Positions 8,048-43,949 of a stretch of 64,000 nucleotides of DNA are shown here, piece by piece. Source of the DNA: Polyangia bacterium (GTDB taxonomy: Bacteria; Myxococcota_A; Polyangia; Polyangiales; JAUICN01); assembly GCA_030427835.1 (NCBI GenBank), contig JAUICN010000011.1, positions 1-64,000 of the forward strand, read 5' to 3'. The notes beneath the pieces were generated by a model. It worked only from the letters and a program-made list of their open reading frames with translations. It searched no databases and was not told the DNA's origin. A program made the position numbers and the translations under genes. How positions within the stretch are numbered: the first letter of the stretch is position 1; every line of letters begins with the position of its first letter.

Positions 8048-8076
8048 AAGCAGATCGACTCTTTGGAGCAAGTGAA

Positions 8077-8259
8077 ATGACAAAACTACGCATTACACAA
8101 GTCAAAAGCACAATCGGGCGACCCAATCATCAGAGGCTGGTCTTGCAAGGCCTTGGCCTCCGTGGTCCTGGGCGTAGTAACACAGTAGACAACACACCTT
8201 CCTTTCGCGGAATGGTCAAGAAGGTGCTCCACTTGGTGCACGTCGAGGAAACGGAATAG
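8077..8259 (+). CDS. rpmD: 50S ribosomal protein L30
   Basis: A 60-residue protein with the L30 fold signature [21 protein letters not shown], followed by [20 protein letters not shown]. It is the single-domain bacterial form. It lies 29 nt after rpsE and 2 nt before rplO. Confidence 0.96.
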
Positions 8260-8261
8260 TC

Positions 8262-8765: not shown

Positions 8766-8785
8766 GCAGTAGCTTCACCCCTATT

Positions 8786-10099: not shown

Positions 10100-10103
10100 A
10101 ACG

Positions 10104-10769: not shown

Positions 10770-10784
10770 AACAGGTTTACTAAC

Positions 10785-11036
10785 ATGCAAGAAGCAAACC
10801 ACACGGGACAATATGGGGCTCAGGGGGCCCTTGAGGCCATTGTGGAGGAGGCTCTACCTCGAGCCATGTTTCGAGTACGCACGGAGGATGGTTTTTCCCT
10901 GCTTGCTTCCTTGCCCATACAAGCAAGTCAGGTCATTGTTCGCATTCTGCCCGGAGATCGAGTTCTCGTTCGACCCATGGAAAGAAACCCAAGCAGGGGC
11001 AGAATTGAAAAGAAGCTAAGTCACCGTAAGAGGTAA
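10785..11036 (+). CDS. infA: Translation initiation factor IF-1 (divergent)
   Basis: An 83-residue OB-fold protein between adk and rpmJ, the normal infA position. The conserved parts are EEALPRAMFRVRTEDGFSLLAS and VIVRILPGDRVLV, followed by SRGRI. The usual segment HISGKMRKNYIRILPGD is rewritten as LPIQASQVIVRILPGD, so the loop that contacts 16S rRNA helix 44 has changed. It also has a longer N-terminus (about 12 residues) and a basic C-terminal tail. I infer the function from fold pattern and position. Confidence 0.88.
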   Translation: MQEANHTGQYGAQGALEAIVEEALPRAMFRVRTEDGFSLLASLPIQASQVIVRILPGDRVLVRPMERNPSRGRIEKKLSHRKR

Positions 11037-11039
11037 GTT

Positions 11040-11153
11040 GTGAAGGTCCGTCCGAGCGTTAAAAAGATCTGCGAAAAATGCAAAGTCATCCGTCGTAAGG
11101 GCGTTGTGCGGGTTATCTGTACAAACCCAAGACACAAGCAGAGGCAGGGCTAG
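11040..11153 (+). CDS. rpmJ: 50S ribosomal protein L36 (zinc form)
   Basis: A 37-residue protein starting at GTG, 3 nt after infA. It reads [20 protein letters not shown] then [15 protein letters not shown]. The zinc ligands C-x2-C...C-x4-H are all present (C+ form). It is the last gene before a terminator-like hairpin. Confidence 0.95.
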
Positions 11154-11305
11154 TTCTCCTAGGGCGAACTACCTAGAAAAATGCATCGCTTAAGACTTGA
11201 TCTTAGGTGTCATGCGATCCATAACCCGCGCCCCGCTTAATTTGGGGCCTTTTTCGAATCCGTCACGACGACGGCTTTCGAGAATGATTGAGGAAAACAC
11301 GAAAA
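11154..11305 (+). promoter_or_regulatory. Leader region upstream of rpsM (alpha operon)
   Basis: A 152-nt gap separates rpmJ and rpsM. It contains a small hairpin (AGTTC/GAACT, 11153-11171), a second stem around 11190-11207 (TAAGAC-TTGA-TCTTAG) and then the terminator-like hairpin at 11230-11254. In E. coli the alpha-operon mRNA leader upstream of rpsM binds S4 for feedback control. A comparable role here is plausible, but I cannot show the pseudoknot from sequence alone. Confidence 0.45.
11230..11254 (+). terminator. Rho-independent terminator or attenuator before rpsM
   Basis: GCCCC at 11230-11234 pairs perfectly with GGGGC at 11244-11248 over a 9-nt loop and is followed by CTTTTT (11249-11254). 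This is the canonical layout of an intrinsic terminator on the + strand. It stands between rpmJ and rpsM with only 51 nt left before rpsM. Either the alpha operon has its own promoter overlapping this region, or the hairpin is a conditional attenuator. Confidence 0.7.
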
Positions 11306-11674
11306 ATGGCGCGAATTGCAGGCGTAGATATACCAGGGCGAAAGCAAGTACTGTTCTCATTGCAGTACATCTATGGGATTGGTCCCAACGTGGCGAAGCA
11401 CATCTGCAGCGCAGCGGAGATCGAGCCCACCCGGAAAACAGACTCTTTGGATGAGGCCGAGATTCGGCGAATCCGTGAGGTGTTGGACAGTTCCCACAAG
11501 GTAGAGGGTGATTTGCGGCGGGAGATTGCCATGCACATCAAACGGTTGATGGACCTTGGGTCCTACCGCGGCCTGCGCCACCGACGTGGACTTCCGGTGC
11601 GAGGTCAACGGACAAGCACCAATGCAAGAACCCGTAAGGGTCCCCGTCGTGGGCCCATGGCACGTAAGAAGTAA
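11306..11674 (+). CDS. rpsM: 30S ribosomal protein S13
   Basis: A 122-residue S13 starting [15 protein letters not shown], with LQYIYGIGP and the C-terminal [21 protein letters not shown] use ATG 11306 because the conserved family N-terminus begins there. An in-frame TTG six codons upstream is not needed. It contacts P-site tRNA and bridges the subunits. Confidence 0.97.
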
Positions 11675-11698
11675 GCCTTAGAGGCGGAAGAAAGAACC

Positions 11699-12085
11699 AT
11701 GGCAAAACCCACCAAAGGCAAGAAGAAGGTTAAAAAGAATATAGGCAAAGGTATTTGTCATATTCAGTCTACCTTCAACAATACACTCGTGACCATCACG
11801 GACCTTCAAGGAAACACAGTATCCTGGTCCTCTTCAGGCTCCCGAGGCTTCAAGGGTTCCCGTAAAAGCACCCCATTTGCTGCCCAACTCGCTGCTGAGG
11901 ATGCGATTCGGAAAGCCCAGGACCATGGCGTGACTTCTGTCGCTGTTTTTGTGAAAGGGCCAGGGGCTGGACGGGAGTCCGCCCTGCGAGCGTTCCACAG
12001 CACAGGAGTTCGAGTCACACTGATTCGAGACGTCACCCCCATACCCCATAACGGATGTCGGCCTCCTAAGCGCCGCCGGGTCTAG
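11699..12085 (+). CDS. rpsK: 30S ribosomal protein S11
   Basis: A 128-residue S11: [42 protein letters not shown] and the C-terminal [15 protein letters not shown] are all diagnostic. S11 forms part of the 30S platform. It lies 24 nt after rpsM in the standard order. Confidence 0.98.
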
Positions 12086-12115
12086 CGCCCAACCCTTTTC
12101 AGGAGTTCACTATTC

Positions 12116-12742
12116 ATGGCTAGATATACAGGACCTGTTTGCAAACTTTGTCGGCGTGAGGGCATGAAGCTCTTTCTCAAGGGAGAGCGTTGCTACACCG
12201 ACAAATGCAGCTTTGATCGTCGTCCCTACCCACCTGGACAACACGGTCAACGGCGTTCCAAGTTCACGGAATACGGTATTCGTCTGCGTGAGAAGCAAAA
12301 AGTACGTCGTATGTACGGCATGGTGGAAAAGCAGTTCCGGCGTACGTTCAAAGAGGCCGACCGCGAAAAGGGCGTGACCGGTGAAAACCTACTCAAGGGA
12401 CTTGAGCGTCGGCTAGACAGCGTTGTCTATCGCCTGGGGTTCGCTGCCACTCGCTCCGAAGCCCGCCAGACCGTGCTTCACCGCCACGTGGAGGTAAACG
12501 GCAAACCGGTCAATATCCCTTCTTTCAAAGTAAAAGCGGGTGATACAGTCCGGATCCGCGAGAAAGACAAAGAAATGGCCCGAGTGGCTACCAGTCTTGA
12601 AACCGTGGAGAGACGCGGGGTTCCCGAGTGGCTCGAGCTCAACAAGGACGAACTGTCCGGCACAGTAAAAGCGGCTCCGAACCGTGAAGAGATCACACTG
12701 CCTATCCAGGAACAACTCATCGTCGAGTTTTACTCTAGATAG
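12116..12742 (+). CDS. rpsD: 30S ribosomal protein S4 (zinc form)
   Basis: A 208-residue S4 with an N-terminal four-Cys site: CKLC near residue 9 and RCYTDKC near residue 27. The S4 RNA-binding domain is [29 protein letters not shown]. It nucleates 30S assembly and regulates the alpha operon in E. coli. It lies between rpsK and rpoA as expected. Confidence 0.98.
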
Positions 12743-12794
12743 TCACCTAATTTTAACGAACAGAACGACGAGAAGCGAAGGACGGAGACAACAC

Positions 12795-13814
12795 ATGGAT
12801 CAGCTCGTAGCACAAAACTGGCGTGACCTTATTCGCCCCAAAAAGATCCCTGTAGACCAAGAGACATTGAGCGGCGCCTACGGCAAGTTCGTGGTGGAAC
12901 CTCTTGAGCGTGGGTTCGGACTTACCCTCGGTAACTCCCTTCGAAGGGTACTGCTTTCTTCCCTACAGGGGGCGGCCATTACTGCCGTAAAAATCGAAGG
13001 TGCACTCCACGAGTTCACCTCGGTACCCGACGTGGTGGAGGACGTTACGGAGATTGTTCTTAACCTCAAGACCGTCGTGGCACGATCCCGTAGTCAGGAG
13101 CCGGTTGTTCTCCGCATCGACAAGCAAGGCCCGGGAGAGGTTCGAGCGGGTGATATTGAATCCAACACGTTGGTAGACATCATCAACAAGGATCAACTCA
13201 TCTGCACGGTCTCCAAGGGTGGGCGCTTTACGGCAGAAGTTACGGTTTCCCGCGGTCGGGGCTACGTTCCCGCAGAACGCACAAAGCCAGAGGGTATGCC
13301 CATTGGTACCGTGGCTATCGACGGACTGTTCTCCCCCATTCGCAAGGTCAACTACACAGTAACCAATGCGCGTGTGGGACAAATGACCGACTACGATAAA
13401 CTCTCCCTGGAAGTATGGACCGACGGGACTGTGAACCCCGCGGACGCCGTCGCGTTTGCATCTAAGATTCTTAAAGAGCAGCTCAACGTCTTCATCAACT
13501 TTGAGGAAGAGGTGGAGCCCATCGAAGAAGGCAGCAGCGAAGAGCCTATCAACGAGAGGTTGTTTCTTTCCGTTGAAGAGCTCAAGGATCTTTCCGTTCG
13601 TTCCGCAAACTGCCTTCAGAACGCAGATATTCAACTCATTGGAGAGTTAGTTCAGCGTACTGAGAGCGAAATGCTGAAGACAAAGAACTTCGGGCGAAAG
13701 TCTCTTCGGGAAATCAAAGAAAAACTAGGCGAGCTAGGCCTTTCCTTGGGCATGAAGGTTGAAGGATGGCCTGAAATGCTCGACCGCTGGAAAGCCGGAC
13801 AGAAGACCAACTAG
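12795..13814 (+). CDS. rpoA: RNA polymerase alpha subunit
   Basis: A 339-residue protein. ATG 12795 gives [18 protein letters not shown], then the assembly domain with [22 protein letters not shown]. An acidic linker ([10 protein letters not shown]) leads to the C-terminal domain [20 protein letters not shown]...[13 protein letters not shown], which binds UP elements and activators. Upstream in-frame codons overlap rpsD and are rejected. Confidence 0.98.
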
Positions 13815-13850
13815 GTCTGGAACAGAACGAATTGGAGCAGGGAGTAGATC

Positions 13851-14339
13851 ATGCGGCATAGGAAAGCAGGACGGAAGTTTGGGCGAAACACAAGCCATCG
13901 GCGCGCCATGTTCCGAAACCTTGCCGGTAACCTGGTGCTCCACGAGAGAATCGAGACCACCGAGGCGAAGGCGAAGGAACTGCGTCGGATTGCAGAAAGA
14001 CTGATCACAAAAGCGACTCGTCTTGGAGCGGATCTTACAGCAGATGTGGGCAAGCTTGACGACGACAACCGTTCCTTGGTGTTGGCACGTAGGGTTCACG
14101 CCCAGCGGACTGTCGCCCAGTTTCTTCCACCTAGGCTCGCTCGCACACTCTCGGATGGCACCATCGAAGAGGTTGATTTAGTTCACAAGTTGTTCCACGA
14201 GATCGCACCGCGCTACATGGAGCGCGTTGGCGCAGGTAAGGGCGGCGGATACACGAGGATCATCAAGCGTGTGGCCCGTAAGGGGGACAATGCACCTCGC
14301 GCCATCATCGAGTTCTTGAGCGCGCCCGAAGCCGCCTAG
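13851..14339 (+). CDS. rplQ: 50S ribosomal protein L17
   Basis: MRHRKAGRKFGRNTSHRRAM starts a 162-residue L17. The RNLAGNLVLHERIETTEAKAKELR segment and the C-terminal GGGYTRIIKRVARKGDNAP are conserved. It is about 35-40 residues longer than E. coli L17 because of an insertion around residues 65-105. It closes the alpha operon. Confidence 0.97.
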   Translation: MRHRKAGRKFGRNTSHRRAMFRNLAGNLVLHERIETTEAKAKELRRIAERLITKATRLGADLTADVGKLDDDNRSLVLARRVHAQRTVAQFLPPRLARTLSDGTIEEVDLVHKLFHEIAPRYMERVGAGKGGGYTRIIKRVARKGDNAPRAIIEFLSAPEAA

Positions 14340-14362
14340 AAAAGCAGTCTAGGAAAAGAGGC

Positions 14363-14641
14363 CTAGGGAAGGATTGTAAACTTCGAGTACTCAGCCGAGT
14401 GACTGTGCCACCGGACTTGGACGTCATCTACCCGTGCGGTGGTTGGCCCTGTCTGCGCCCAGGACAAAAAGTCCTTTACATTGCCCTCTTCGCCTTCGAC
14501 AACCATTTCAACACTTCCGTCCGGATGATTACGAACCCATCCATTAAGCCCATGCTGGCGGGCCTCCCTCAGGGCTGTAGCCCTAAAAAACACGCCCTGA
14601 ACACGCCCCCGTACCACGAGATGGATTTGCTTCAGCCCCAT
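14363..14641 (-). CDS. acyP: Acylphosphatase
   Basis: A 92-residue cytosolic enzyme that hydrolyses acyl phosphates. GRVQGVFFRATA holds the phosphate-binding loop and catalytic Arg, and GWVRNHPDGSVEMVVEG holds the catalytic Asn and second motif. I use ATG 14641 because MGLKQIHLVVRGRVQG matches the family N-terminus. Upstream in-frame residues look noncoding. It converges with rplQ and diverges from rpmE. Confidence 0.93.
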   Translation of the reverse strand: MGLKQIHLVVRGRVQGVFFRATALREARQHGLNGWVRNHPDGSVEMVVEGEEGNVKDFLSWAQTGPTTARVDDVQVRWHSHSAEYSKFTILP

Positions 14642-14727
14642 GGGGTTAGGAGTAGCGCACTTGCCGTTGGAAGCCAACGGCGCTAAACATACAGACCGAC
14701 TAGACCTCAACTATCTAGAGAACGACT

Positions 14728-14940
14728 ATGAAATCCGGCATTCACCCAGAGCTCCATCAAACCGCCATCACCTGTGCCTGCGGCACCACCTTCCAGACGC
14801 TTTCCACAAAGGATTCGTTTGCGGTAGATATCTGTTCTGCATGTCACCCGTTCTACACGGGCAAGCAGAAGCTTGTTGACACTGCGGGGCGAGTGGAACG
14901 CTTCAAAAAGAAGTACAGCAGGACACGTACGGGAAGCTAG
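14728..14940 (+). CDS. rpmE: 50S ribosomal protein L31 (zinc form)
   Basis: A 70-residue L31 beginning [19 protein letters not shown]. The Cys pairs CACG and [13 protein letters not shown] indicate the zinc-binding (C+) type, and RVERFKKKY is the usual C-terminal signature. It precedes prfA, a frequent rpmE-prfA arrangement. All three zinc-type ribosomal proteins seen here (S4, L31, L36) are the C+ forms. Confidence 0.97.
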
Positions 14941-14949
14941 GTCTACGAT

Positions 14950-14969
14950 TGTCAGCGTGTTGGCTGACA
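14950..14969 (+). other. Hairpin between rpmE and prfA
   Basis: TGTCAGC (14950-14956) and GCTGACA (14963-14969) form a 7-bp stem with a 6-nt loop just after the rpmE stop. No T-tract follows, so it is a weak terminator at best. It may instead be a processing or stability element in an rpmE-prfA transcript. Confidence 0.4.
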
Positions 14970-15000
14970 GTGGTGGGCTTAGGTTCTATTTCTTCAGGGA

Positions 15001-16074
15001 ATGTTACCCAGGGACAAACTTGACTCTCTCATGGCTCGGTACACCGAGCTTGAGGAGCTATTGTGTCAGCCCAATGTCCTTTCGGATCAGACACAGTTTC
15101 GGCTGCTGTCCAAGGAACGGGCGGACCTCGCACAACTGCAGGAGCGTTACACTGAGTACTTGGGCCTGGAATCCGAACTAAGGGACAACAAAGAGGCGTT
15201 GTCCGACCCTGAGCTGAAGGAACTGGCCCAGGACGAGATCCCTGGGCTGGAAGAGCGCCTAGAAAACCTGGTGTCGGAAATACAGCTGCTGCTGCTTCCC
15301 AGGGACCCCAACGATGCTCGCAATACGATCCTTGAAATCCGAAGCGGGACCGGTGGAGAGGAGGCTGCGTTGTTTGCTGCTGATCTTTTTCGCATGTATG
15401 CCCGGTTCGCAGATCAACAGAAGTGGGGGTTTGAGGTCATGTCCACCAGTGAAGCGTCCGGTGGTGGTCTCAAGGAGATCGTTGCGCTGATCTCAGGTAA
15501 GGATGTGTTTTCGTGGCTGCGTTTTGAGGGGGGTGTGCATCGCGTGCAACGGGTGCCAGCAACGGAATCCCAAGGTCGAATCCATACATCCACCGCGACC
15601 GTTGCGGTACTTCCTGAAGCGGATGATGTGGATATTGACATTCGGGATGAGGATCTTCAGGTCACCATCGCACGCTCGGGAGGGCCCGGAGGTCAGGGCG
15701 TAAACACAACGGACTCGGCTGTGCAAATCATACACAAGCCAACCGGCATCATGGTGAAGTGCCAGGACGAGCGCTCCCAGATCAAGAACCGGGCGAAGGC
15801 CATGAAGATTCTCCGAGCCCGTATCCTGGAGCAGGAACAGCGAGCCCAGGACGACGCCATCAGCGCAGAGCGCAAGAACATGGTGGGTACCGGTGAGCGC
15901 TCCGAGAAGATTCGCACCTACAACTACCCCCAGAATCGAATCACAGATCATCGAATCCAGGTGACCCTACACAAGTTGGATGCGGTGGTAGAAGGTGATC
16001 TAAACGAGTTAATCTCCGCGCTGCGGACATCCCACCAGGCAGAGCTACTGAAACTTTCCCAATCCGACCTGTAG
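15001..16074 (+). CDS. prfA: Peptide chain release factor 1
   Basis: A 357-residue class I release factor terminating at UAA/UAG. The coiled N-terminal domain is followed by EIRSGTGGEEAALFA. RVPATESQGRIHTSTATVAVLPE carries the PxT anticodon-like motif of RF1, and SGGPGGQGVNTTDSAV carries the catalytic GGQ. NRITDHRIQVTLHKLD near the C-terminus is also typical. RF2 would have SPF instead of PAT. It lies 60 nt after rpmE. Confidence 0.97.
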   Translation: MLPRDKLDSLMARYTELEELLCQPNVLSDQTQFRLLSKERADLAQLQERYTEYLGLESELRDNKEALSDPELKELAQDEIPGLEERLENLVSEIQLLLLPRDPNDARNTILEIRSGTGGEEAALFAADLFRMYARFADQQKWGFEVMSTSEASGGGLKEIVALISGKDVFSWLRFEGGVHRVQRVPATESQGRIHTSTATVAVLPEADDVDIDIRDEDLQVTIARSGGPGGQGVNTTDSAVQIIHKPTGIMVKCQDERSQIKNRAKAMKILRARILEQEQRAQDDAISAERKNMVGTGERSEKIRTYNYPQNRITDHRIQVTLHKLDAVVEGDLNELISALRTSHQAELLKLSQSDL

Positions 16075-16099
16075 ATCCGTTGAAGTTTGCGTCAGCTCC

Positions 16100-16756
16100 A
16101 TGTGTTTCGGTTCCATGACTACCCAACCCATACGCTATTCAGAGTCTAAGCTGCCTACGCGGTTCGGTGAGTTTGCGATTGTCACTTACAGGCAGCAGCC
16201 GTCCCATCCTGTGGGGGATGCTGACGACAAACCCTACCCACAGGAGCATTGTGCTTTGATCCTGGGCGGGAATTTGTCCGAACCAGTTCTAGCGCGTGTG
16301 CATAGTGAATGTCTGACTGGAGAAGCCTTCCATTCGTTGCGGTGCGACTGCCGCCACCAGTTGGACCTGGCGTTGGAGCGAATTTCTGAAAATGACTCTG
16401 GAGTCCTTGTGTATCTACGGCAGGAGGGAAGAGGCATTGGTCTCGGCAACAAGGTGAAAGCCTACGCGTTACAGGATGAGGGCGCAGATACGGTGGATGC
16501 AAATACGCGTCTCGGCCTGCCCGCGGACGCCAGGGATTACAAGGTAGCCGCATCCATTCTGGGGGATCTGGGCGTTCGCAGTGTTCGCCTGATGACCAAC
16601 AATCCAAACAAAGTTGAAGCTCTCGAAGCGCACGGGATTGTCGTCACGCAACGTGTCGGCCATGAAGCGGCACCCAACGCACACAACTCTGGCTATTTGC
16701 GCACAAAGCAGCAACGTATGGGGCATCAACTCACCTTGCCAAAGAGCGACAAGTAG
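16100..16756 (+). CDS. ribA: GTP cyclohydrolase II
   Basis: A 218-residue enzyme for the first step of riboflavin synthesis. HSECLTGEAFHSLRCDCRHQL supplies the three zinc-binding Cys (spacing C-x10-C-x-C), YLRQEGRGIGLGNKVKAYALQ the substrate loop, and RLMTNNPNKVEALEAHGI the C-terminal motif. No DHBP synthase domain is fused, so RibB must be elsewhere. Met at 16100 or 16115 could be the start; neither has a strong ribosome-binding site. Confidence 0.93.
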   Translation: MCFGSMTTQPIRYSESKLPTRFGEFAIVTYRQQPSHPVGDADDKPYPQEHCALILGGNLSEPVLARVHSECLTGEAFHSLRCDCRHQLDLALERISENDSGVLVYLRQEGRGIGLGNKVKAYALQDEGADTVDANTRLGLPADARDYKVAASILGDLGVRSVRLMTNNPNKVEALEAHGIVVTQRVGHEAAPNAHNSGYLRTKQQRMGHQLTLPKSDK

Positions 16757-16774
16757 ACCCTTTCGATTCAGGGT
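16757..16774 (+). other. Short hairpin between convergent ribA and the Lon-domain gene
   Basis: ACCCT (16757-16761) pairs with AGGGT (16770-16774), slightly extended by flanking GACC/GGTC. It lies exactly in the 21-nt gap between two convergent stop codons. It may act as a weak bidirectional terminator. Confidence 0.35.
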
Positions 16775-16777
16775 CGG

Positions 16778-17458
16778 TCAACACCAACTATCGCGACGTG
16801 CACTTCCGTGCAGTAGTACCGCGGACAGCTCTCCCACCGCTTCTACCACGAGCTGCACCCGTTGCTTCACGTTCCTGGTCTCCAAGATGCGTTGCCGAAC
16901 ATCCACGTCTGCAACAAGCTGGTCGGCAATCAAATCCGCCATGCGGCTGGTGCTTGCCTTTGCTGGGATCTGAAGTGAAAACCCCGAGTGTTCCTGCTTA
17001 ATACGGGAGGCAACGGTAGATGCGCAAGAGAGAAGCGTGGCCATGTCCGAGGGCAGCGCTGCACCCTCGTCAGCAACTGTGCGAACGCGAGCGCGCATGT
17101 AAGGGGAGTTCTCCATGGCAAGGGGTTCTAACAAGCACCTATCCATACCCTGCAATACGATGTTGAAACGGCCATCGTCCATGGCCTCATGGGAAACAAT
17201 ACGACCCACGCCGCACATCTCCCGAAACCCTTCTCCTGTTTCCATGTCTCCAGGCGAAACGCTTTGGGTTACCGCCATGACCATGGAGCCCCTGGCAACG
17301 CAGTCACGCATCATGGTTCGGTACCGATCCTCAAACAGATGAAGCGCAAGCGAAGTCCCAGGAAAAAGCACAGCGCCACTCAATGGGAAGACAGCCACAT
17401 CCTCCAGTTCATGTGCGGCGAGGGGCACGGCCATCATTTTCTCCGATGAACTATCCAT
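16778..17458 (-). CDS. Lon N-terminal (substrate-binding) domain protein
   Basis: A 226-residue stand-alone LON domain protein (PF02190 type) without ATPase or protease domains. VAVFPLSGAVLFPGTSLALHLFEDRYRTMMRDCV is the family N-terminal signature, and GVGRIVSHEAMDDGRFNIVLQGMDRCLLE is the second. The C-terminal half is helical, ending in a coiled segment. Such proteins are widespread and of unclear role. It overlaps the upstream folE stop by 8 nt, so the two are probably coupled. Confidence 0.85.
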   Translation of the reverse strand: MDSSSEKMMAVPLAAHELEDVAVFPLSGAVLFPGTSLALHLFEDRYRTMMRDCVARGSMVMAVTQSVSPGDMETGEGFREMCGVGRIVSHEAMDDGRFNIVLQGMDRCLLEPLAMENSPYMRARVRTVADEGAALPSDMATLLSCASTVASRIKQEHSGFSLQIPAKASTSRMADLIADQLVADVDVRQRILETRNVKQRVQLVVEAVGELSAVLLHGSARRDSWC

Positions 17459-18077
17459 GATTTCCCTCGCTGTTCCTGTAAGCAGTGTTTCCCTGTGTGG
17501 CTGTTGCGACCGTTACTGCGTCACGAAGGTCCTGCTGTACATCTCCAGCCCAGGCCACGGTCGTTGCTCGTACTGAGCTCTTGCATGGCGGCCGGGAAGA
17601 CAGGCAGGTTGGGGCCATGGTCGCAATGCATCCCGCTGCCCGAGCATCCAGGTGTTCTACCAACGCGTCTGCAATTTGTTGTACCAGTTGTTCTTGAAAG
17701 GAGAGGCGTCTAGAAAAGCATTCCACAAGCCGGTGAAGTGCACCGAAGCCCACCACGCGATCCTTGGGAGTGTAGCCCACGCAGATGTGCCCGACGGTAG
17801 GCATGAGGTGGTGAGGGCAGGTTGTTGCTGCGGGAATCCCGGAAACAACCACCACATCTGAACGGGCGGCCACGGGGCTGCTCGCCAAAATCGCCTTTGG
17901 ATCCTGGGCATATCCGGAGAGGAGTTCGTCAACAAAAAGAGCGGTCACTCTTCTTGAAGTATCTGTCGCGTCCACCTCAGAGTGATCCAACCCGATGGCC
18001 CCTAGGAACTGGCCCATGGCCCACTCGGCGCGCTTTCGGTCAGGTGGCTTCACTGCGAACCCACCGCTGCACCGCAT
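17451..18077 (-). CDS. folE: GTP cyclohydrolase I, FolE-type, with altered active site
   Basis: A 208-residue T-fold protein. TTCPHHLMPTVGHICVGYTPKDRVVGFGALHRLVECFSRR matches FolE, with zinc ligands Cys87 and His90 and the adjacent His89. The third zinc Cys aligns with Cys158, but the usual HxC pair (His179/Cys181 in E. coli) reads PTC, so the His is Pro156. The following motif is SRPPCKSSVRATT instead of ARGIRxxxSxTTT. It could be a modified FolE or a paralogue with other chemistry. It lies beside ribA, which uses the same substrate. Confidence 0.8.
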   Translation of the reverse strand: MRCSGGFAVKPPDRKRAEWAMGQFLGAIGLDHSEVDATDTSRRVTALFVDELLSGYAQDPKAILASSPVAARSDVVVVSGIPAATTCPHHLMPTVGHICVGYTPKDRVVGFGALHRLVECFSRRLSFQEQLVQQIADALVEHLDARAAGCIATMAPTCLSSRPPCKSSVRATTVAWAGDVQQDLRDAVTVATATQGNTAYRNSEGNHG

Positions 18078-23423: not shown

Positions 23424-25295
23424 ATGAAGACCTGGTGGACGCTCCTCCCCTGCGCTCTTGTCCTGTGGGCGTGCGGAGGCGGTAAGCAGACCGACCCAAA
23501 CGTGAGCGGGGGTGGGTCTCCCTGCGTACAGGACCGAGACTGTGCGGGCGGCCTCACCTGCGAGGCAGGCCTATGTGCGCGCCATTCAGCATGTTCCAGT
23601 TCACCACTGGCGGATGCGATGTACACGGCCGGTTTTGGAAACTGCGAGGGTGACGCGGTTTCCCTAGCCCAGGGAAGTCTTAGCGGGACCCTCACGGTGG
23701 ATGCGCAGGACGGTGCCATTCGCCTCACGAAGACCGAAGAGAAAAAGACCCATATCTGGATTGTAAATACGGGCCAAGCCACCGTATCCAAAATCGACAC
23801 AGAATCCCTGCAGGAAGTGGGGCGGTACCGCACGGGCCCCTGGGGTGCTCGGCAAAATCAGTTTAATGCAGGTGACGACCCGTCGCGAACATCCATCAAC
23901 TCGGTAGGAGACGCATTTGTGGGCAATCGGCTCACACAGTCCCTAACCAAAATCCACGGGGCGGGTTGTCCAGACGCTGACGGAGACGGGGAGGTAACGA
24001 CCTCCCATGGAAACACGGCCTTGGATTGGAAGCAGGATGAGTGTGTCGCCTGGTACCGGGTCTTTGCCGGGGGCGGCCAGGTGCGTGGCGTGGCGGCACA
24101 GGATGTGGTTGACAGCAGTGGTAGCGTCCAGAGCTACGTCTGGGTTGCAAGCTACGGGGGGGACAGTACGGGGCAATACGCAAGAATCAGGAAACTGAAT
24201 GGAAGCACTGGGGATGTCCTGGTGGAAACCGACTCTCCAGTGGACGGCGCCTATGGTCTTGCCCTGGACGGCCATGGCAACCTTTGGATCGCTTCAAACG
24301 TTTCAGCATCCCTGGGCCGCATCGACACCACGCGGTGTACCGACAACCTCTCCTGTGACGTGCAGGCGTGCGTGTCCACGGGCCTTGCCGACAACGGAAA
24401 CGGTGACGAATGCATCAAACAATCCGTGTTCCTTCCGGGCTACGCGGGCACGCAAATGCCCTACGGAATCACCGTGGACTCCAAACAACGGGTGTGGCTT
24501 GCGGGCGGCTTTGTCACCCGATACGACCCAAGCGAAGCATCGGCTTCTAGGATAGAGCAGTTCACGTTTCCATGGGCCGCGACACAGATTGCCGTACATG
24601 GGATTAGCGCCTCCGCCGATGGTTGGATATGGGGGGCTTCCCTGGATAGCGGGGTAGTGCGCATTCACGCAGACAATCCAACCGCCTCGGGTGGCCCTAC
24701 GGTGGTGGCCGGCACGACCACCCACAAAAACAAAGGTGTCGCCGTGGATGTCCAAGGCAAAGTGTGGTCGATTCCCCTGCAACAGGACTTTGATACCGCG
24801 ACGCCGGACGTTGCATTGGTGATCGACCCGGGCACAGGACCAGGCGACGAAACCGTGGACGCCACAAGTGTGGATTTTCTCTACGAGCCCTACACCTATT
24901 CCGACATGACGGGCACCCAGTTGCGCAACGTGCTCCCCAACTACGGCACGTTGCGTACGATTCTTCAGGGTTGCGACGATGGAGCCACCCAATGGTCCAA
25001 CCTGGTTTGGAATGGCGAAGTTCCGGTGGGTACCCAGCTCATCTTCCAGGTCCGCACGGGTGCCACACGAAGCTCCCTTGCCGCCGCCCAATGGGTGAAT
25101 CTGGGGTCGGCAACCAGTGCCACATCGTTACTTTCCGCTGTGGACCGCGCGTTGGAAGAGGCAGACCTACAGCCCCGCCGGTATCTTGAGGTGGAAGTTC
25201 AACTCCAGCGGCTGGACATCCACGCGTCAAGCTTTCTCACGCCCACATTGCGTTGGCTCGAGGCATCCTATTCCTGCGACCAGGATATTCTTTAG
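23424..25295 (+). CDS. Secreted lipoprotein with NHL/streptogramin-lyase-like beta-propeller
   Basis: A 623-residue protein. MKTWWTLLPCALVLWACGG is a lipoprotein signal peptide with the lipobox Cys at 17. A short Cys-rich stretch follows (CVQDRDCAGGLTCEAGLC). The body contains repeats of the form GLALDGHGNLWIAS, GITVDSKQRVWLAGG, GISASADGWIWGAS and GVAVDVQGKVWSI, typical of Vgb/NHL blades. The C-terminal ~120 residues look like a separate beta domain. The ligand is unknown. Confidence 0.85.
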   Translation: MKTWWTLLPCALVLWACGGGKQTDPNVSGGGSPCVQDRDCAGGLTCEAGLCARHSACSSSPLADAMYTAGFGNCEGDAVSLAQGSLSGTLTVDAQDGAIRLTKTEEKKTHIWIVNTGQATVSKIDTESLQEVGRYRTGPWGARQNQFNAGDDPSRTSINSVGDAFVGNRLTQSLTKIHGAGCPDADGDGEVTTSHGNTALDWKQDECVAWYRVFAGGGQVRGVAAQDVVDSSGSVQSYVWVASYGGDSTGQYARIRKLNGSTGDVLVETDSPVDGAYGLALDGHGNLWIASNVSASLGRIDTTRCTDNLSCDVQACVSTGLADNGNGDECIKQSVFLPGYAGTQMPYGITVDSKQRVWLAGGFVTRYDPSEASASRIEQFTFPWAATQIAVHGISASADGWIWGASLDSGVVRIHADNPTASGGPTVVAGTTTHKNKGVAVDVQGKVWSIPLQQDFDTATPDVALVIDPGTGPGDETVDATSVDFLYEPYTYSDMTGTQLRNVLPNYGTLRTILQGCDDGATQWSNLVWNGEVPVGTQLIFQVRTGATRSSLAAAQWVNLGSATSATSLLSAVDRALEEADLQPRRYLEVEVQLQRLDIHASSFLTPTLRWLEASYSCDQDIL

Positions 25296-26434
25296 ATCGC
25301 TTCCATGGCCGGTGTGCCGTCGGCGTGCTCGTACAACGGAGGTTTCTGCATGGCGCCTGCCGGCATGATCCGGCATTGGGGGAAATACACGGAAGCCGCC
25401 CCTTGAACGGCCGGACCACAATGGCCTGCCACCGCCAACGCCCTGAGGTGTGATCCCACCGGAGCCAATATCTGAACCACCTGTTCCATGTTCTCGCATT
25501 GAAACAGGGAAATATTTCGAAGTCCGGGGCTCGGCCGAAGAGACTGGAGATGGCCCTCCCAGGAAACACCGTGAGCCTCACCTTCCCAGAGCGTGCCAAC
25601 GGTGCTCGCCACCGCGCGCCACTGGTGTTCCTCTGCACGTTGCTCAACCGATAGGGTGCCCCGTGGAAGCTTCTCCTCCAGGTCGGTCAATGCCCGGTGA
25701 AGTTGGAGGCCAAAGCTCCCTGACCGGGAGTTGTCCCCCCCCAGCAGAATCACGGCGTGGGGAGAAAGGCACCCCCGTTGATCGTAGGCCGCCACATCCA
25801 TGGCCAGGGCCTGCGCCCATGGCCACTGGTGCTCCGCATCATTCTCGAGGCCTTCCGGGGTCACAAGAGCCACCCCCAAACCGTGGCCGTGCCCCACAAA
25901 ACCGGCCACGGGATTGCTGTGTTGCAACGCGCCTTTCCACGTCGCGATGGTGGCGTCGGATCCAAACACCTCCACCCGATCCACATCGCCCACCATGGCG
26001 AGACCATCCTCCACCATTGTGACCGGAGCAGTGCATCCCACAGACTCTGAAGTGTCGCGGACAGCCGCACAAAACCAGGTGGGAAACAACAAATCTCTCC
26101 GGGAGGGCTTCACCCATAGTTCCGAGCCCGACACGAGCGAATACAGAATCGGTTTGATGCAGCCTGTGAAGAGGTTTCCAGCGAGGACCAGAAGATGCTT
26201 TCCCTGATGGCCCCTACCCGCAATATGCCGTTTCCAAATCGGAAATAGGGTGCCGGATGCCCACGGGTGCAGTTCCTGTTCCAGGGCCCACTGAACCATC
26301 GGAGTACTCAGGCCACTGGAATCAGCAACCGCCTGTAGATCGTCTCCCTGCCCAAGCCGTTCACCTAGGCTCGTCACCGCGCCTTCCAGTACGGAAACAC
26401 GCTGTTCCACAGAAAGCGTGCTCCACTTCACCAC
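25292..26434 (-). CDS. LuxC-like acyl-CoA/acyl-enzyme reductase
   Basis: A 380-residue aldehyde dehydrogenase-like enzyme of the LuxC family (PF05893). LLVLAGNLFTGCIKPILYSLVSGSELWVKPSRRD is the nucleotide-binding region, and AMDVAAYDQRGCLSP contains the catalytic Cys (residue 222 from this start). It reduces an acyl group to an aldehyde with NADPH. The start is GTG 26434 or 26431, overlapping the luxE-like stop. It is the third gene of an operon with an aminotransferase and a LuxE-like enzyme; no luciferase genes are present. Confidence 0.88.
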   Translation of the reverse strand: MVKWSTLSVEQRVSVLEGAVTSLGERLGQGDDLQAVADSSGLSTPMVQWALEQELHPWASGTLFPIWKRHIAGRGHQGKHLLVLAGNLFTGCIKPILYSLVSGSELWVKPSRRDLLFPTWFCAAVRDTSESVGCTAPVTMVEDGLAMVGDVDRVEVFGSDATIATWKGALQHSNPVAGFVGHGHGLGVALVTPEGLENDAEHQWPWAQALAMDVAAYDQRGCLSPHAVILLGGDNSRSGSFGLQLHRALTDLEEKLPRGTLSVEQRAEEHQWRAVASTVGTLWEGEAHGVSWEGHLQSLRPSPGLRNISLFQCENMEQVVQILAPVGSHLRALAVAGHCGPAVQGAASVYFPQCRIMPAGAMQKPPLYEHADGTPAMEAI

Positions 26435-27597
26435 AGTACGTCCTCCACCGAGAGGGAGCAGCCCCGTGCGGTTGCGTTCGGGTCCCTGCCCAACAACTCC
26501 AACCCGTGATCCGTCATGCGCCCCACATCCGAGGTTTGAATGGCGCATACGCTGTGCAAGTTCGCCAAGTCGTCAATACGTACCAAGCCCGATTGGCCCT
26601 CACCCACAGGAGCGAGGGTAGCCGGATCCACAATGGACACACGCACCCATGGGGGGGCCACGTAACCCCGGCGACTATTCTCTGTTTGGGTACCAGGCGT
26701 CAACGGTATGGAATGGAACAGCGTGGATTCCAACGGCGTGGACTCCAACAGTGTGGACTCGTAGAGCTGACTACTGAGCTCCGTCATCCCGTATTCGCCC
26801 ACCACACAACGATCAGTTAAGCCGTAGCGCGCACCGATGGCTTGCCGAAGCATGGCAGGTTCCACTTCCCGGGAGCGCCCCTTGTAACCCCCTGTTTGCA
26901 TGGCGAAGCTTCCCTGAGGGAGTTCAAAGGTCCCTGGTCCAAGTTGGTCTTCTCCGTGCACAAAGGCAAAGGCGGTTCCCAATAGGAATGTTGGGTGTCC
27001 CTTACGGCAAGCCGTTCTCACCGCTGTTGTAAGCTCATCCCCAAGGAGTTGGGAGTTTCGCCACACGCGGTGCACGTTTTCAGGCTGCGCAAACTGGCTC
27101 AAGAAATCATCCACCATGTGAGAAAGCGAAGAGTGGGGTGCCTCTTCGCTGGATGGCAGTAGGAGCACCCATTGCGCGTTGGGTTGACGGCCCAACCCGA
27201 GCATGTGCGCGCCCATTCTACGGGCCCCCAGATCGTAGAGCCGTGTATGGGGAAGCGCGTGAACACCCCTGGGGAGTTGCGTGGTTCCCGAGGTTTCAAA
27301 GCGAACCGTCAAGGCTTCCGTGGGGTAGGGTGTGACCAACGCATATCGAAACACGTCCGTGGGAAGACCGGGGAAAAGGTCAATGGAGGGCGGCTTCGGA
27401 TTGCCGTTTCTCTGATGAATCCACTTTCCGTAGGGCACCACATGTTCTGCCTGCCAACGTAGGGCCTCGAGAAGCAGTGCGTCCCGTGTGCTGTGTTGGG
27501 TCGACTCCAGTGGATTCCCTGGGTCACTACTCGGGAACAGAACGCAGGATTCCATGAATGACAGCACCCGTGCTTCGAGATCGGCAGGGGGCCTCAT
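26428..27597 (-). CDS. LuxE-like acyl-protein synthetase
   Basis: A 389-residue adenylate-forming enzyme of the LuxE/PaaK type (PF04443). FETSGTTQLPRGVHALP is the ATP-binding SGTT loop, CVVGEYGMTELSSQLY is the GMTE motif, and GLVRIDDLANL follows. Near the C-terminus RGCSLSVEDVLW places a Cys at residue 380 where LuxE carries its acyl-thioester Cys. It should activate a carboxylic acid as acyl-AMP and hold it for the LuxC-like reductase. A short LESTxLEST repeat interrupts the domain near residue 285. Its ATG overlaps the aminotransferase stop. Confidence 0.88.
   Translation of the reverse strand: MRPPADLEARVLSFMESCVLFPSSDPGNPLESTQHSTRDALLLEALRWQAEHVVPYGKWIHQRNGNPKPPSIDLFPGLPTDVFRYALVTPYPTEALTVRFETSGTTQLPRGVHALPHTRLYDLGARRMGAHMLGLGRQPNAQWVLLLPSSEEAPHSSLSHMVDDFLSQFAQPENVHRVWRNSQLLGDELTTAVRTACRKGHPTFLLGTAFAFVHGEDQLGPGTFELPQGSFAMQTGGYKGRSREVEPAMLRQAIGARYGLTDRCVVGEYGMTELSSQLYESTLLESTPLESTLFHSIPLTPGTQTENSRRGYVAPPWVRVSIVDPATLAPVGEGQSGLVRIDDLANLHSVCAIQTSDVGRMTDHGLELLGRDPNATARGCSLSVEDVLW
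26723..26767 (-). repeat. 15-bp tandem repeat inside the luxE-like gene
   Basis: Three imperfect 15-bp units (GTGGATTCCAACGGC, GTGGACTCCAACAGT, GTGGACTCGTAGAGC on the + strand) encode the Leu-Glu-Ser-Thr-rich insert in the LuxE-like enzyme. Probably slippage-derived and located in a surface loop after the GMTE motif. Confidence 0.75.
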
Positions 27598-28925
27598 GGC
27601 GTGGACTCAAGGGTTTCTGTGAGGGTATGTACGAAACGATCAAGGATGTCTCGATGCACCGTCACGGGAGGGCAGAGTTGAACCACTTCGCCGTATTTGC
27701 CCGCGGGCAAGGTAATGTATCCCCGTTCAAGCAAACCGCGAACCGTGGCAAGCCCCAGGGGGCCGCTATCCATTTCCACACCCAGCAACAGGCCCCGCCC
27801 GCGAACTTCCTTCACGTGAACGTGCGAGCCCACGGTGTTCTGAAGTTTGTGCAAAAGCCACGCGCCTGTAGCCTGGGCACGCTCACATACTTTTTCTGTA
27901 TTCAATGCGTTCAGCGTGGCCAACGCCGTGGCACAACCCAGGGGGTGCCCAAAAAACGTACCGGTGTGAATCGGCACCTGGTCCGGTGTTCCCCAGGCTT
28001 CCATGATTTCAGTTCGGCCCAGGCATGCGCTCACCGGAAGGCCTCCACCCAGGGCCTTACCCACACACAGTAGGTCAGGTTCCAAACCAAGCGTTGTGCT
28101 GAGCCAGGTATTTCCGCAGCGGCCCAATCCCGTCAGCACCTCGTCGGCAATGAGCACAGCACCCTGTTCACGTAGCAAGCCCCGCAGTGCTGCTGGCGCC
28201 TCATCTCCCATGCCAACCACACCACCACGACCTTGCATGGGCTCGAGAATTACCGCCCCTAGGGGAGTGGCTCCCAACGCGTTGTCCACCTGAGCCCTCC
28301 ATACATCGACCGAAATGCCGTCCCTAGGGTAGGGCGCAAAGATCACGTATGGATTCAGTTGCTCCAAGAAGGGTTCTCGAAAAGCGTTCGAGAATCCGGA
28401 GACCCCAAGCGGTCCGTAGCCCAGTCCGTGGTAGCTGCCCTCAAAGGCCAACACCGTGGGCCGGCCCGTGGCGAGCACGGCGGTTTTCAGGGCCATCGTC
28501 ACGGCGTCATTTCCCGTGAGCCCTAGCGCCACCCTCCCATCTGGCCAGGGAGCCAGATCCTGCAGCCGTTCCAGCAGTTCGATCTTCACCGTCGAGGGTT
28601 GGAAATCCCCCATGCCATGCACCAACTGGTGTGATTGGGCCCCCATGGCTTGCTGTACAAATGGCGGGTTGTGCCCCAACAGGGCCACCCCGAAGCCGGC
28701 CGTGAGGTCCACAAAGACCTGTCCGTCCGCGTCCCCCACGTTCCACCCAAGGGCCCGGTTCCAGACAATGGGGTCCTGGGAGGCCCCCGAAAGCTCCTGC
28801 CTACGGGCCCGACGCATTGTAAACGCTGGGGATTCCACCCCAGCCAACCGCTCGACCCACGCCCGTGAGGTCGAACCCGGAATCTCCCCGGACACCTGGG
28901 GAGCACACTGGCCAAAGGCGTACAT
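27594..28925 (-). CDS. Class III PLP-dependent aminotransferase
   Basis: A 443-residue enzyme of the GabT/HemL/BioA type. FEGSYHGLGYGP at 161-172 binds PLP, and VILEPMQGRGGV and LIADEVLTGLGRCG (Asp261) contact the ring. Lys290 in DLLCVGKALGGGLPVSA forms the Schiff base. Its stop overlaps the LuxE-like start by 4 nt. Paired with an acid-activating enzyme and an aldehyde-forming reductase, it most simply aminates the aldehyde product. Direction and substrate are not shown by sequence. Confidence 0.93.
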   Translation of the reverse strand: MYAFGQCAPQVSGEIPGSTSRAWVERLAGVESPAFTMRRARRQELSGASQDPIVWNRALGWNVGDADGQVFVDLTAGFGVALLGHNPPFVQQAMGAQSHQLVHGMGDFQPSTVKIELLERLQDLAPWPDGRVALGLTGNDAVTMALKTAVLATGRPTVLAFEGSYHGLGYGPLGVSGFSNAFREPFLEQLNPYVIFAPYPRDGISVDVWRAQVDNALGATPLGAVILEPMQGRGGVVGMGDEAPAALRGLLREQGAVLIADEVLTGLGRCGNTWLSTTLGLEPDLLCVGKALGGGLPVSACLGRTEIMEAWGTPDQVPIHTGTFFGHPLGCATALATLNALNTEKVCERAQATGAWLLHKLQNTVGSHVHVKEVRGRGLLLGVEMDSGPLGLATVRGLLERGYITLPAGKYGEVVQLCPPVTVHRDILDRFVHTLTETLESTP

Positions 28926-31910: not shown

Positions 31911-32546
31911 TCACACGCCGGTGGCGGAGGGAGACCAAATGTATTTATGCATTTGCAGCTGAAACCGGGCAGGTAGCTTGTCTTCCAGCATCCATTGCAC
32001 CACCTGGTGCGCCCCCACCGTGTTGTGTACGCAGCTCAAAAGCACCTGGCCCGCACGGTGGTTAAGGTTGTGCTCGGAAATGACACGGCGCGTCCAATCG
32101 TAGTCCGCCCGATCCGCAATCACGAACTTCACCTCATCCAAATCGGTGAGTGCATCCACATTTTCCCAACGGTTGCGATGGTCTTCCCCACTGGCCGGTG
32201 CCTTGAAATCCACAATCCGATGCACCCGTGGATCCAACACCGAAATATCCCGTTCTCCACTGGTCTCAATGAGCACCGTGCGCCCCGCGTCACACAACTC
32301 GGTGGTTAGGGGAATCACACCCGGCTGCAACAGAGGTTCCCCACCGGTCACCTCCACAAGGGGCGCCTCCGGGGCCAGGGCCTGCTTGAGAACATCCTGT
32401 CGGCCCATGCGCGTACCGCCGTAGAACGCCTGGGGCGTGTCGCACCAGGCACATCGAAGATTGCACCCCGTCAGCCGAATGAAGGTGCACGGCAACCCCG
32501 CAAAGGAGGACTCCCCCTGAATCGAGGTGTAAATCTCGTGCACCAT
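31911..32546 (-). CDS. queE: 7-carboxy-7-deazaguanine synthase
   Basis: A 211-residue radical-SAM enzyme of queuosine/7-deazapurine synthesis. VHEIYTSIQGESSFAGLPCTFIRLTGCNLRCAWCDTPQA shows the QueE start and the CxxxCxxC cluster as C-NLR-C-AW-C, and EVTGGEPLLQPGVIPL is the SAM/GGE motif. ATG 32546 matches the family N-terminus. No other queuosine genes are adjacent, although folE at 17.5 kb could feed the same pathway. It is 28 nt downstream of the PBP gene and probably co-transcribed. Confidence 0.93.
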   Translation of the reverse strand: MVHEIYTSIQGESSFAGLPCTFIRLTGCNLRCAWCDTPQAFYGGTRMGRQDVLKQALAPEAPLVEVTGGEPLLQPGVIPLTTELCDAGRTVLIETSGERDISVLDPRVHRIVDFKAPASGEDHRNRWENVDALTDLDEVKFVIADRADYDWTRRVISEHNLNHRAGQVLLSCVHNTVGAHQVVQWMLEDKLPARFQLQMHKYIWSPSATGV

Positions 32547-32574
32547 CAATGTGTCTTCCTTGGCCACGGTCTCC

Positions 32575-34689
32575 CTACAGCTGCTCCAAAAGAAATGTGC
32601 TTGTATCGACCATGTCGGGGCGCGGTGCTTCTTCCTGGGGCGCGGTGCCATCTAGGAAAATCTCATCCACCGCGCCTTCCATACCCTCAAAGGCGCGTAA
32701 ACCGGTCACCGGGTCAATACGCACCTGCTCCACGTCCTCGGGCACCACAAACCGTTCGTCGAAACCCTTTCCGTGGGCAGCTCCCATGATGTCTACCCAG
32801 ATGGGCAACGCAGAGCGGCTGCCCCCCTCCTTGCGCCCGAGCCGTTGGGGAGTGTCAAAACCCACCCAGACCCCAGCCACACGGCGTGGGGAATAGCCCA
32901 CAAACCAGGCATCTCGGGCGCCGTTGGTGGTGCCCGTCTTGCCGGCCACGTCGAAACCTAAGGCCCGTGCGCGCCTTCCTGTGCCGTCCTGAATCACCGA
33001 TTGCAGAAGGCTAGTCACCACATAGGCTTCACTGCGGCTCAACACCTCACGGGGTGGTTCAGGCGGATCGATGCGAATGTCCTGGCCCTTGGGGCCCACC
33101 ACCCGGGTAAGCCACCGGGTAGGTTGCCATCTCCCACCGGCCGCGAAGGTAGCGTAGGCATTGACCATTTCTGAAAGGTGCACCTCGCTCGCCCCCAGGG
33201 CCAGGGATCCCGTGGCCTCAAGCGAAGTGGTAATCCCAAGGTCCCTTGCAAACTGGGCCACCGCCTCGGGGGTCACTTCTTCGATCAAGCGAACCGCCAC
33301 AGAGTTGATGGAAAGCGCCAACGCGCGACGCAGGGGAATGTGCCCCTGGTATTCGTCCGCGCGATAGTTCTTAGGCTGCCAGCCCTCGTACACTGTGGGG
33401 GCGTCCACCAAAAGGGAAGCTGGCGTGAACTCCCGGGACTGGATGGCAAGGGCATAGACAAACGGTTTGAAGGAACTTCCCGGTTGCCGTTTGGCCTGGG
33501 TAGCCCGGTCAAACCCTGGCCCCTTACCGTAGCCACCCACCCAGGCTAGCACTTCCCGGCGGTCCGTATCCAACACGTAGGCTGCCGCTTCCGGGCCCCA
33601 GGTCCGGGCGCCCGAGGTGTCCTCATCTTCCTTGGCTTTCTTGTATTTCTGGCGTTTGTCCAGGGCATCCAAACCCTTTCGCACCGCAGCTCTGGTCTTG
33701 CCCTGCAGTTTAGCGTCTAGGGTGGTGTACACCGTAAAGCCACCCAGCGCGCGGGTCGCCGGGGGCACCCGTTCCTTCAGCCATTGCAACACCGCCGTGC
33801 GTACCTCTGGAGCCGGGTCCGGAGAAGGCGTGAGATCCACCAGTTGTGGCACCGTGCTCCGCGCCTGGGCAATTTCCTTGGCATCCAGATCCGGCCAATA
33901 GGATTCCCGCTTCCGTTCCAGCTGCCCCAACACAAAACGTTGGCGCCGCCGTGCTGCCTCCATATTCCCCCTGGGAGAAAGCCGCGCAGGGGCCTGGGGG
34001 ATTCCGGCAATCAAGGTGGCTTCCGCCAGGGTGAGGTGCTGTACGTCCTTGCCAAAGTAATACTGCGAGGCCTCCTGTACACCGTAGCGCCCGTGCCCAA
34101 AGTTAATGTGGTTCAAGTACAGAAACAGAATTTCATCCTTGGTAAGGTACTGTTCCAATCGCCGAGCAAGAATCAACTCCTTGATTTTGCGGGTGAGGGT
34201 CCGCTCGGGCGTCAGCAACAGCAGCTTCACGACCTGCTGGGTAATCGTACTTGCACCCTGGGCCTTGCGGCCGGAGAGCACATCACGCGCCACCGCACGG
34301 GCGATACCTGGGTAGTCCAGACCCTCGTGAAGGTAGAAGTCCGCGTCCTCGGCCGCGAGTACGGCCAGCACCAGGTGCCTTGGTACCTTCTCCATCGGAA
34401 CCACCGTCCGCCGTTCAGACGCCAACTCCGCCAACACCACGCCGTTGCGATCCAAGATGCGCGTGGTCTGTGGAAACTTGTGGTCCCGAAGGGCGTCCAC
34501 CGTGGGCAAATCACGGCTGAAGTAAATAAATACCCCTGCCACCGTCGCAAGGCCCAGCGCGCCCCCCCACAGGGCAAGCTGAAACAACACCCGCCAAACC
34601 ACAGCGCCCCGGGAGGTTTGCCGTTTCCCCTGCGTTTTCCCCGTGCGCTTCCTATTGGGCCCACTCGCCCGACTACCCGCCCTAGACAT
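32575..34689 (-). CDS. Class A penicillin-binding protein (PBP1A type)
   Basis: A 704-residue bifunctional murein synthase. One N-terminal membrane anchor (LALWGGALGLATVAGVFIYF) is followed by a glycosyltransferase domain with LAAEDADFYLHEGLDYPGI, GASTITQQVVKLLLL and RRLEQYLTKDEILFLYLNHI. The transpeptidase domain has PGSSFKPF (SxxK), LSINS (SxN) and KTGTTNGARDAWFVGY (KTG). ATG 34689 starts the Arg/Lys-rich cytoplasmic tail. It diverges from the ATP-grasp-like gene across 126 bp. Confidence 0.95.
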   Translation of the reverse strand: MSRAGSRASGPNRKRTGKTQGKRQTSRGAVVWRVLFQLALWGGALGLATVAGVFIYFSRDLPTVDALRDHKFPQTTRILDRNGVVLAELASERRTVVPMEKVPRHLVLAVLAAEDADFYLHEGLDYPGIARAVARDVLSGRKAQGASTITQQVVKLLLLTPERTLTRKIKELILARRLEQYLTKDEILFLYLNHINFGHGRYGVQEASQYYFGKDVQHLTLAEATLIAGIPQAPARLSPRGNMEAARRRQRFVLGQLERKRESYWPDLDAKEIAQARSTVPQLVDLTPSPDPAPEVRTAVLQWLKERVPPATRALGGFTVYTTLDAKLQGKTRAAVRKGLDALDKRQKYKKAKEDEDTSGARTWGPEAAAYVLDTDRREVLAWVGGYGKGPGFDRATQAKRQPGSSFKPFVYALAIQSREFTPASLLVDAPTVYEGWQPKNYRADEYQGHIPLRRALALSINSVAVRLIEEVTPEAVAQFARDLGITTSLEATGSLALGASEVHLSEMVNAYATFAAGGRWQPTRWLTRVVGPKGQDIRIDPPEPPREVLSRSEAYVVTSLLQSVIQDGTGRRARALGFDVAGKTGTTNGARDAWFVGYSPRRVAGVWVGFDTPQRLGRKEGGSRSALPIWVDIMGAAHGKGFDERFVVPEDVEQVRIDPVTGLRAFEGMEGAVDEIFLDGTAPQEEAPRPDMVDTSTFLLEQL

Positions 34690-43250: not shown

Positions 43251-43949
43251 TCAAGTGTAGGGGGTGATGACCTGGGTCGCCACCACGGGCCCCAGGATAC
43301 AAAAGCGGCCCGAAACACGCGTTCCCTGGGGTAAATGAGGCACCTGCTCACGCAGCATCTCCACCTCGAACGTTCCACCCTGTGCATCCACCGTGAGCTG
43401 CACATCCTTGAAACCCAACCAGGTGTTCGTTCTCGGGTACTGCCATTTGTAATAGGCCTCCTTGGCACTGAATATCATCAACTTCAGCCCATGGACGTGC
43501 TCGGGGTCCTCACCATTCACCTCGCACCACTGAGCTTCTTGCCCGTGCAATACCTTGGCTTCGATCTTCCCGATCCGCCGGTGCGTCCCTTCCACGTCAA
43601 TCCCCACACCAAAGTGTGGCTTTCGGGCCACCACGCTCACCACATAGGTTTGGCCATCCGCCACCCCGCAGTGACTGATGCTGCCATCCAGTCTGCAATG
43701 GCTAATGCTCCCCGCGACGTCTGCGGGCCAAATCGGCTCGCCCTTGTCCCCCACGCACGGCTCCCGGGACGCCACTCGTAACTCGTCCATCGCCTCCACT
43801 GCCCCCATTGCCTCAACAGCACACGCCCGCCCCAGGGCAAACTCATCCTCCCGGGCCAGTTCCCCATCCACCAGCCGGGCACTTACCCCCACCCCCGGAG
43901 CCAAACGCCAGAACTCCAGTAACTGCTCCTCCCACGTCACCCCACCCAC
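43251..43949 (-). CDS. 4'-phosphopantetheinyl transferase (EntD/Sfp-like)
   Basis: A 232-residue enzyme that attaches the phosphopantetheine arm to carrier proteins. WPADVAGSISHC, FGVGIDVEGTHRRIGKIEAKVL (with the Asp of the GxDxE-type magnesium site) and MIFSAKEAYYKWQYP are the three family motifs. The start is GTG 43949. The first motif carries a local duplication, SISHCRLDGSISHCG. It leads an operon with two surface lipoproteins; no carrier-protein or synthetase gene is in the window. Confidence 0.88.
   Translation of the reverse strand: MGGVTWEEQLLEFWRLAPGVGVSARLVDGELAREDEFALGRACAVEAMGAVEAMDELRVASREPCVGDKGEPIWPADVAGSISHCRLDGSISHCGVADGQTYVVSVVARKPHFGVGIDVEGTHRRIGKIEAKVLHGQEAQWCEVNGEDPEHVHGLKLMIFSAKEAYYKWQYPRTNTWLGFKDVQLTVDAQGGTFEVEMLREQVPHLPQGTRVSGRFCILGPVVATQVITPYT

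Follow-up and report, generated by a model that had tools for sequence, protein, structure and literature searches.

A conserved operon of an aminotransferase and LuxE- and LuxC-like enzymes probably stands in for QueC and QueF in the synthesis of preQ1

What does a bacterium do with relatives of the bioluminescence enzymes LuxE and LuxC when their genes are joined in an operon to that of a class III aminotransferase (AT)? The question is raised by the window, that is, the whole stretch of 64,000 nucleotides of contig JAUICN010000011.1 from a Polyangia bacterium (order Polyangiales) that was analysed. Three genes make up the operon:

27594..28925, minus strand: class III PLP aminotransferase (AT), 443 aa; PF00202 at 261 bits; Lys290 in GKALGGG.
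26428..27597, minus strand: LuxE/PaaK-like protein, predicted to activate an acid and to carry it as acyl-Cys, 389 aa; PF04443 at 32.3 bits; C-terminal Cys380 in RGCSL.
25292..26434, minus strand: LuxC-like putative thioester reductase, 380 aa, with a GTG start; PF05893 at 79.3 bits; Cys222 in DQRGCLSP.

Read in the sequence, luxE and the AT gene overlap in an ATGA at 27597/27594, and the luxE stop (26428) and the luxC GTG (26434) form a 7-base overlap. The PF04443 match covers the C-terminal domain of the LuxE-like protein and lies above the curated cut-off of 24.9 bits, that for PF05893 being 21 bits. The overlapping minus-strand genes and the catalytic residues described in the initial annotation are therefore confirmed by Pfam matches, overlaps and residue positions, but the interval it assigned to the operon, 26428-28925, covers only the AT gene and luxE and leaves most of luxC (25292-26434) outside. 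Among aligned homologues, Lys290 is kept in 40/40, Cys380 in 44/44 and Cys222 in 36/36, and this invariance argues that the operon is not a product of chance. The two other genes to which that annotation had drawn attention are also real, namely a divergent sodium:solute symporter (PF00474) at 28935 and a phosphopantetheinyl transferase gene at 43251-43949. None of the sampled relatives was seen to have the symporter next to the operon, and it is no part of the AT-LuxE-LuxC module. Within LuxE, a short 'ESTLLESTPLEST'-type repeat (window 26700-26760) corresponds to a low-confidence loop of the structural model, at residues about 280-304.

A match to LuxE is present in all 57 of 57 genomes of the host's order, spanning 39 genera and usually as a single copy, and the order AT-luxE-luxC is preserved at most of the loci around it; named relatives among the LuxE loci include Polyangium, Sorangium cellulosum, Minicystis rosea and Labilithrix. 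In other orders of the host's class LuxE is mostly absent or weak. A sample drawn from across the phylum gave a LuxE match in 232 of 284 genomes, and all three genes also occur together at loci from many of its other families. LuxE relatives also occur in metagenome-assembled genomes (MAGs) labelled Gemmatimonadetes, Chloroflexi, Verrucomicrobia and Gammaproteobacteria, six of these genomes having the AT too. Of 11 cases in which no AT gene adjoins luxE, 10 have an AT-profile match of at least 366 bits at another place in the genome, the exception being G291, and genomes lacking LuxE score at most 293 bits. Similarly, 8 of 10 cases in which LuxC is not beside LuxE have it at another site, and in seven module-less genomes it does not exceed 21 bits; LuxC was weak in G010 and G330, and G422 and G424 were left out of the LuxC check. 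At one locus (L108) LuxE and LuxC are fused in a single frame with both cysteines kept. The three genes are thus a conserved module, which co-occurs for the most part even when unlinked and in most of the families sampled from the phylum, so that the co-conservation on which the pathway proposed for the operon had been staked holds strongly, for linked and unlinked copies alike and across phyla. The neighbours of the module vary by lineage, with ribosomal protein genes, SUF and dnaN-recF forming a housekeeping setting and the symporter and ABC transporters also seen; the housekeeping genes suggest a core function for the module, without naming one. No viral contigs with LuxE or AT were found.

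The aminotransferases of the module form one clade (support 0.93), and the AlphaFold model of the AT (pLDDT 94) has the class III fold. GABA-AT, ArgD, the putrescine aminotransferase PatA/YgjG and BioA share this fold and the PLP lysine, which is kept in 121/121 ATs of the wider set. The module ATs differ from the GABA-AT/ArgD type at positions whose roles we take from those of GABA-AT: in the 121 module ATs the arginine that binds the substrate carboxylate is nearly always leucine (Leu168 here), the gating glutamate is arginine in 121/121 (Arg233), and the 2-oxoglutarate arginine is found in 0/121, with T, Q, S, G, A or V there instead. The loss of both carboxylate-binding arginines is as expected for an enzyme whose aldehyde and amine carry no carboxylate; Arg233 might, as a guess, bind the carboxylate of the donor.

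For LuxE, the model (pLDDT 87) has its nearest folds in PaaK and other acyl-adenylating enzymes, and PaaK enzymes act on an aromatic acid. The LuxE family profile aligns with chain 7xc6_E at 115 bits over most of its length, with Cys380 on the GCSL cysteine, and the LuxC family profile matches 7xc6_A, with Cys222 on the LuxC cysteine. The module enzymes therefore belong to the same families as the LuxE-LuxC fatty acid reductase (7xc6), sharing the C-terminal acyl-Cys of LuxE and the catalytic Cys of LuxC. Unlike the luminous system, the module comes without luciferase or LuxD, its LuxE has an EYGMTE motif where the LuxE of 7xc6 differs, and it falls far under the cut-offs of the bioluminescence equivalogs NF052244 and NF052251 (41.5 and 20.4 bits against 550 and 750). 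It is very likely that an acid is activated by LuxE, reduced by LuxC and, as the aldehyde, aminated by the AT, which is the order of an acid-to-amine pathway that the initial annotation had put forward.

Separate ArgD-like and BioA-like copies in the host genome led us to reject roles of the module AT in arginine or biotin synthesis. The tetrapyrrole C5 pathway was likewise rejected, canonical GluTR being present in 18/18 genomes and a HemL-like copy in the host genome; the ArgD-like and BioA-like copies were named from sequence motifs and position.

The window itself offers a candidate acid. Two of its genes bear on the early part of the queuosine pathway:

31911..32651 (probable start 32546), minus strand: queE, 7-carboxy-7-deazaguanine (CDG) synthase with CxxxCxxC; TIGR04349 at 265 bits, below the cut-off of 300.
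17451..18077, minus strand: folE-like GTP cyclohydrolase I; NF006825 at E 3.9e-41, under the model cut-off; weak QueF-model match at 17628-17801.

The queE gene lies 3 kb from the operon, and tgt, queA and queG are found in the host genome outside the window; the readable part of that genome gave no QueD. The folE-like gene may catalyse an initial reaction that the queuosine pathway also draws on, or may serve folate only. It closes a stretch (1452-18077) in which a ribosomal-protein cluster (rplB, secY, adk, rpsD, rpoA) is followed by prfA, ribA and a LON-domain protein gene. A closer linkage is seen in a Verrucomicrobia MAG contig (L234), where a single strand carries, in this order, queE, a short ORF, AT, luxE and luxC, and where QueE is 55% identical to that of the window. 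Since several module-less genomes have a QueE of this same type beside queC, the module in L234 occupies the place of queC. Minicystis rosea has queD in the vicinity of its module. Among the module genomes examined, QueE was found only in the host genome and G414, with one further copy inside a Dpd island. No preQ1 riboswitch was found upstream in the window or at eight loci; like the few finds of QueE and the missing QueD, this tells against a role in queuosine synthesis.

The queuosine hypothesis was recorded ahead of the que-gene searches, which covered a selected, non-random set of genomes. QueF (PF14489) was found in 0/25 module genomes and in 12/16 module-less genomes, in the latter at 92 bits or more, a difference with a Fisher p of 2e-7 by genome and of 1e-4 by lineage (0/21 versus 7/11), neither being fully corrected for phylogeny. 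Module genomes give only short, weak matches to the QueF model, with scores of some 22 to 31 bits; in the window this match is the folE-like gene. QueC (PF06508) is present in 15/16 module-less genomes, in G188 at only 89 bits. Among the module genomes there are three QueC matches only, each of which we inspected individually: that of G422 belongs to an island for Dpd DNA modification that also encodes DpdA, DpdC and DpdJ; G009 has its match next to a CBASS-type cyclase and a TGT-like protein; and that of G414 is a divergent relative. QueA, which needs preQ1-tRNA, was present in 44/44 genomes searched, often with tgt adjacent. The module is thus found where QueC and QueF are missing and QueA is kept, the distribution looked for in a preQ1-forming step. 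Missing sequence does not explain the losses of QueC and QueF, since the module genomes G011, G187, G250 and G301 are single contigs. The either-or pattern is not a simple one, with misfits in G291, G064, G065, G182 and G188; the last four have no module and yet also lack QueF, so that a missing QueF alone is no proof.

Taken with the position of the module near queE, the loss of QueC and QueF with retention of QueA indicates the conversion of CDG to preQ1, a passage from acid through aldehyde to amine on a molecule with no other carboxylate. We propose that the operon stands in for QueC and QueF in queuosine synthesis as follows. QueE would produce CDG, whose carboxylate would be adenylated with ATP by the LuxE-like enzyme and held as an acyl group on Cys380. 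Transfer of the acyl group to Cys222 of the LuxC-like enzyme and reduction with NAD(P)H would give 7-formyl-7-deazaguanine, and amination of its aldehyde by the AT would yield the aminomethyl compound preQ1. The subsequent use of preQ1 by TGT and QueA would be as usual, and preQ0 with its nitrile would be bypassed. The genes, their catalytic residues and co-occurrence, the que pattern and the linkage to queE are what we observed, and from them we infer CDG as the substrate, the aldehyde as the intermediate and the amino donor. We put the probability that the module makes preQ1 from CDG by way of a thioester, an aldehyde and a transamination, in place of QueC and QueF, at roughly 85%.

These same observations bear on the substrate hinted at in the initial annotation, a fatty acid, which is probably the wrong class given the loss of QueC and QueF and the proximity of queE. 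Reduction of a fatty acid by LuxE and LuxC with formation of a fatty amine by the AT, or the reverse, would agree with the fatty acyl groups used by LuxE and LuxC of luminous bacteria, and membership of these families is clear. Such a role leaves the loss of QueC and QueF and the queE linkage unexplained, and the recurrent neighbours of the module included no recognisable lipid, ACP or luciferase genes; we consider it very unlikely.

The que pattern could also arise if preQ1 or queuine were salvaged from outside, the module performed some other housekeeping acid-to-amine step and its anticorrelation with QueC and QueF reflected shared ancestry. The genomes are related, which makes the counts non-independent, the four module-less genomes without QueF fit this reading, and salvage-only gene sets, in which tgt and queA occur in the absence of queF, are known (PMC5372724). 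Against it, the QueE here and in the L234 array and the queD near the Minicystis module indicate that early de novo steps are kept in these genomes, queuine uptake would need no QueA, yet QueA is universal in the genomes searched, and the pattern recurs in MAGs of four other phyla. Salvage therefore seems unlikely, if less so than a fatty amine. Least probable of all, and hardly to be expected, is that the module makes another 7-deazaguanine derivative or uses another intermediate of the pathway while preQ1 is formed in some other way. The substrate is deduced from co-occurrence and linkage alone, which leaves room for such a product, but QueA depends on preQ1 in tRNA, and taking the acid of CDG to an aldehyde and then to an amine gives exactly preQ1, with no extra steps.

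The formation of preQ1 from CDG by the module can be set beside the canonical path of QueC and QueF, in which CDG is converted first to an amide (ADG) and then to a nitrile (preQ0) before preQ1 is reached (PMC5372724). Like QueC and QueF, the module would lead from CDG to preQ1, but there is no homology between the enzymes, and it would use a thioester, an aldehyde and a transamination where QueC and QueF use an amide and a nitrile. QueC also activates the carboxylate of CDG. The open-access literature yielded no description of such a preQ1 route, nor anything of relevance that links LuxE to an aminotransferase, to queuosine or to myxobacteria. The route would be new, though part of a known pathway, and built from non-homologous enzymes. 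We think it likely, if a little less so than the reaction itself, that this nitrile-free second route replaces QueC and QueF in the sampled order, in many further families of its phylum and in certain members of at least four additional phyla, with relatives of the bioluminescence fatty acid reductase acting on a nucleobase.

Queuosine synthesis in E. coli has been called fully worked out, with QueD, QueE, QueC and QueF, and genomes are classed as queuosine makers or scavengers by these genes (PMC5372724, PMC11130926). If the proposal is true, many bacteria at present counted as incapable of producing preQ1, the precursor of a widespread tRNA wobble base, do produce it, the nitrile intermediate is optional in preQ1 synthesis, and the chemistry of LuxE and LuxC reaches beyond fatty acids to nucleobases. 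Three widely conserved genes would gain a function, and 7-formyl-7-deazaguanine would be a testable intermediate.

Several loci outside the main pattern were also seen. A MAG labelled Gemmatimonadetes has a Dpd 7-deazapurine DNA-modification island (L376, 1462-12058) with DpdA, DpdC and DpdJ together with queC, queE and queD, and in a genome of the host's order QueC-like, TGT-like and CBASS-type cyclase genes stand side by side (L378, 1517-4055). The G291 locus (L097) has LuxE-LuxC and QueC without the module AT or QueF, possibly a mixed or intermediate state. Two Sumerlaeota MAGs (G418, L242 4947-7323; G421, L251) have a LuxE relative and QueA and lack QueF, tRNA-type QueC and the module AT; as the AT of these two genomes groups apart from the module clade, neither was counted as a module genome. 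The end of luxE in L242 is overlapped by a class I/II aminotransferase gene, which could substitute for the module AT. Plasmid operons of Azospirillum (L073, 10001-15869), Priestia (L074, 9953-15789) and Pantoea (L072, 12001-15312) carry a LuxE-LuxC pair related to that of the module, with an SDR instead of an aminotransferase and, in the first two, an NMT1/THI5-like ABC transporter; these loci possibly serve the acid-to-alcohol salvage of a thiamine-type precursor.
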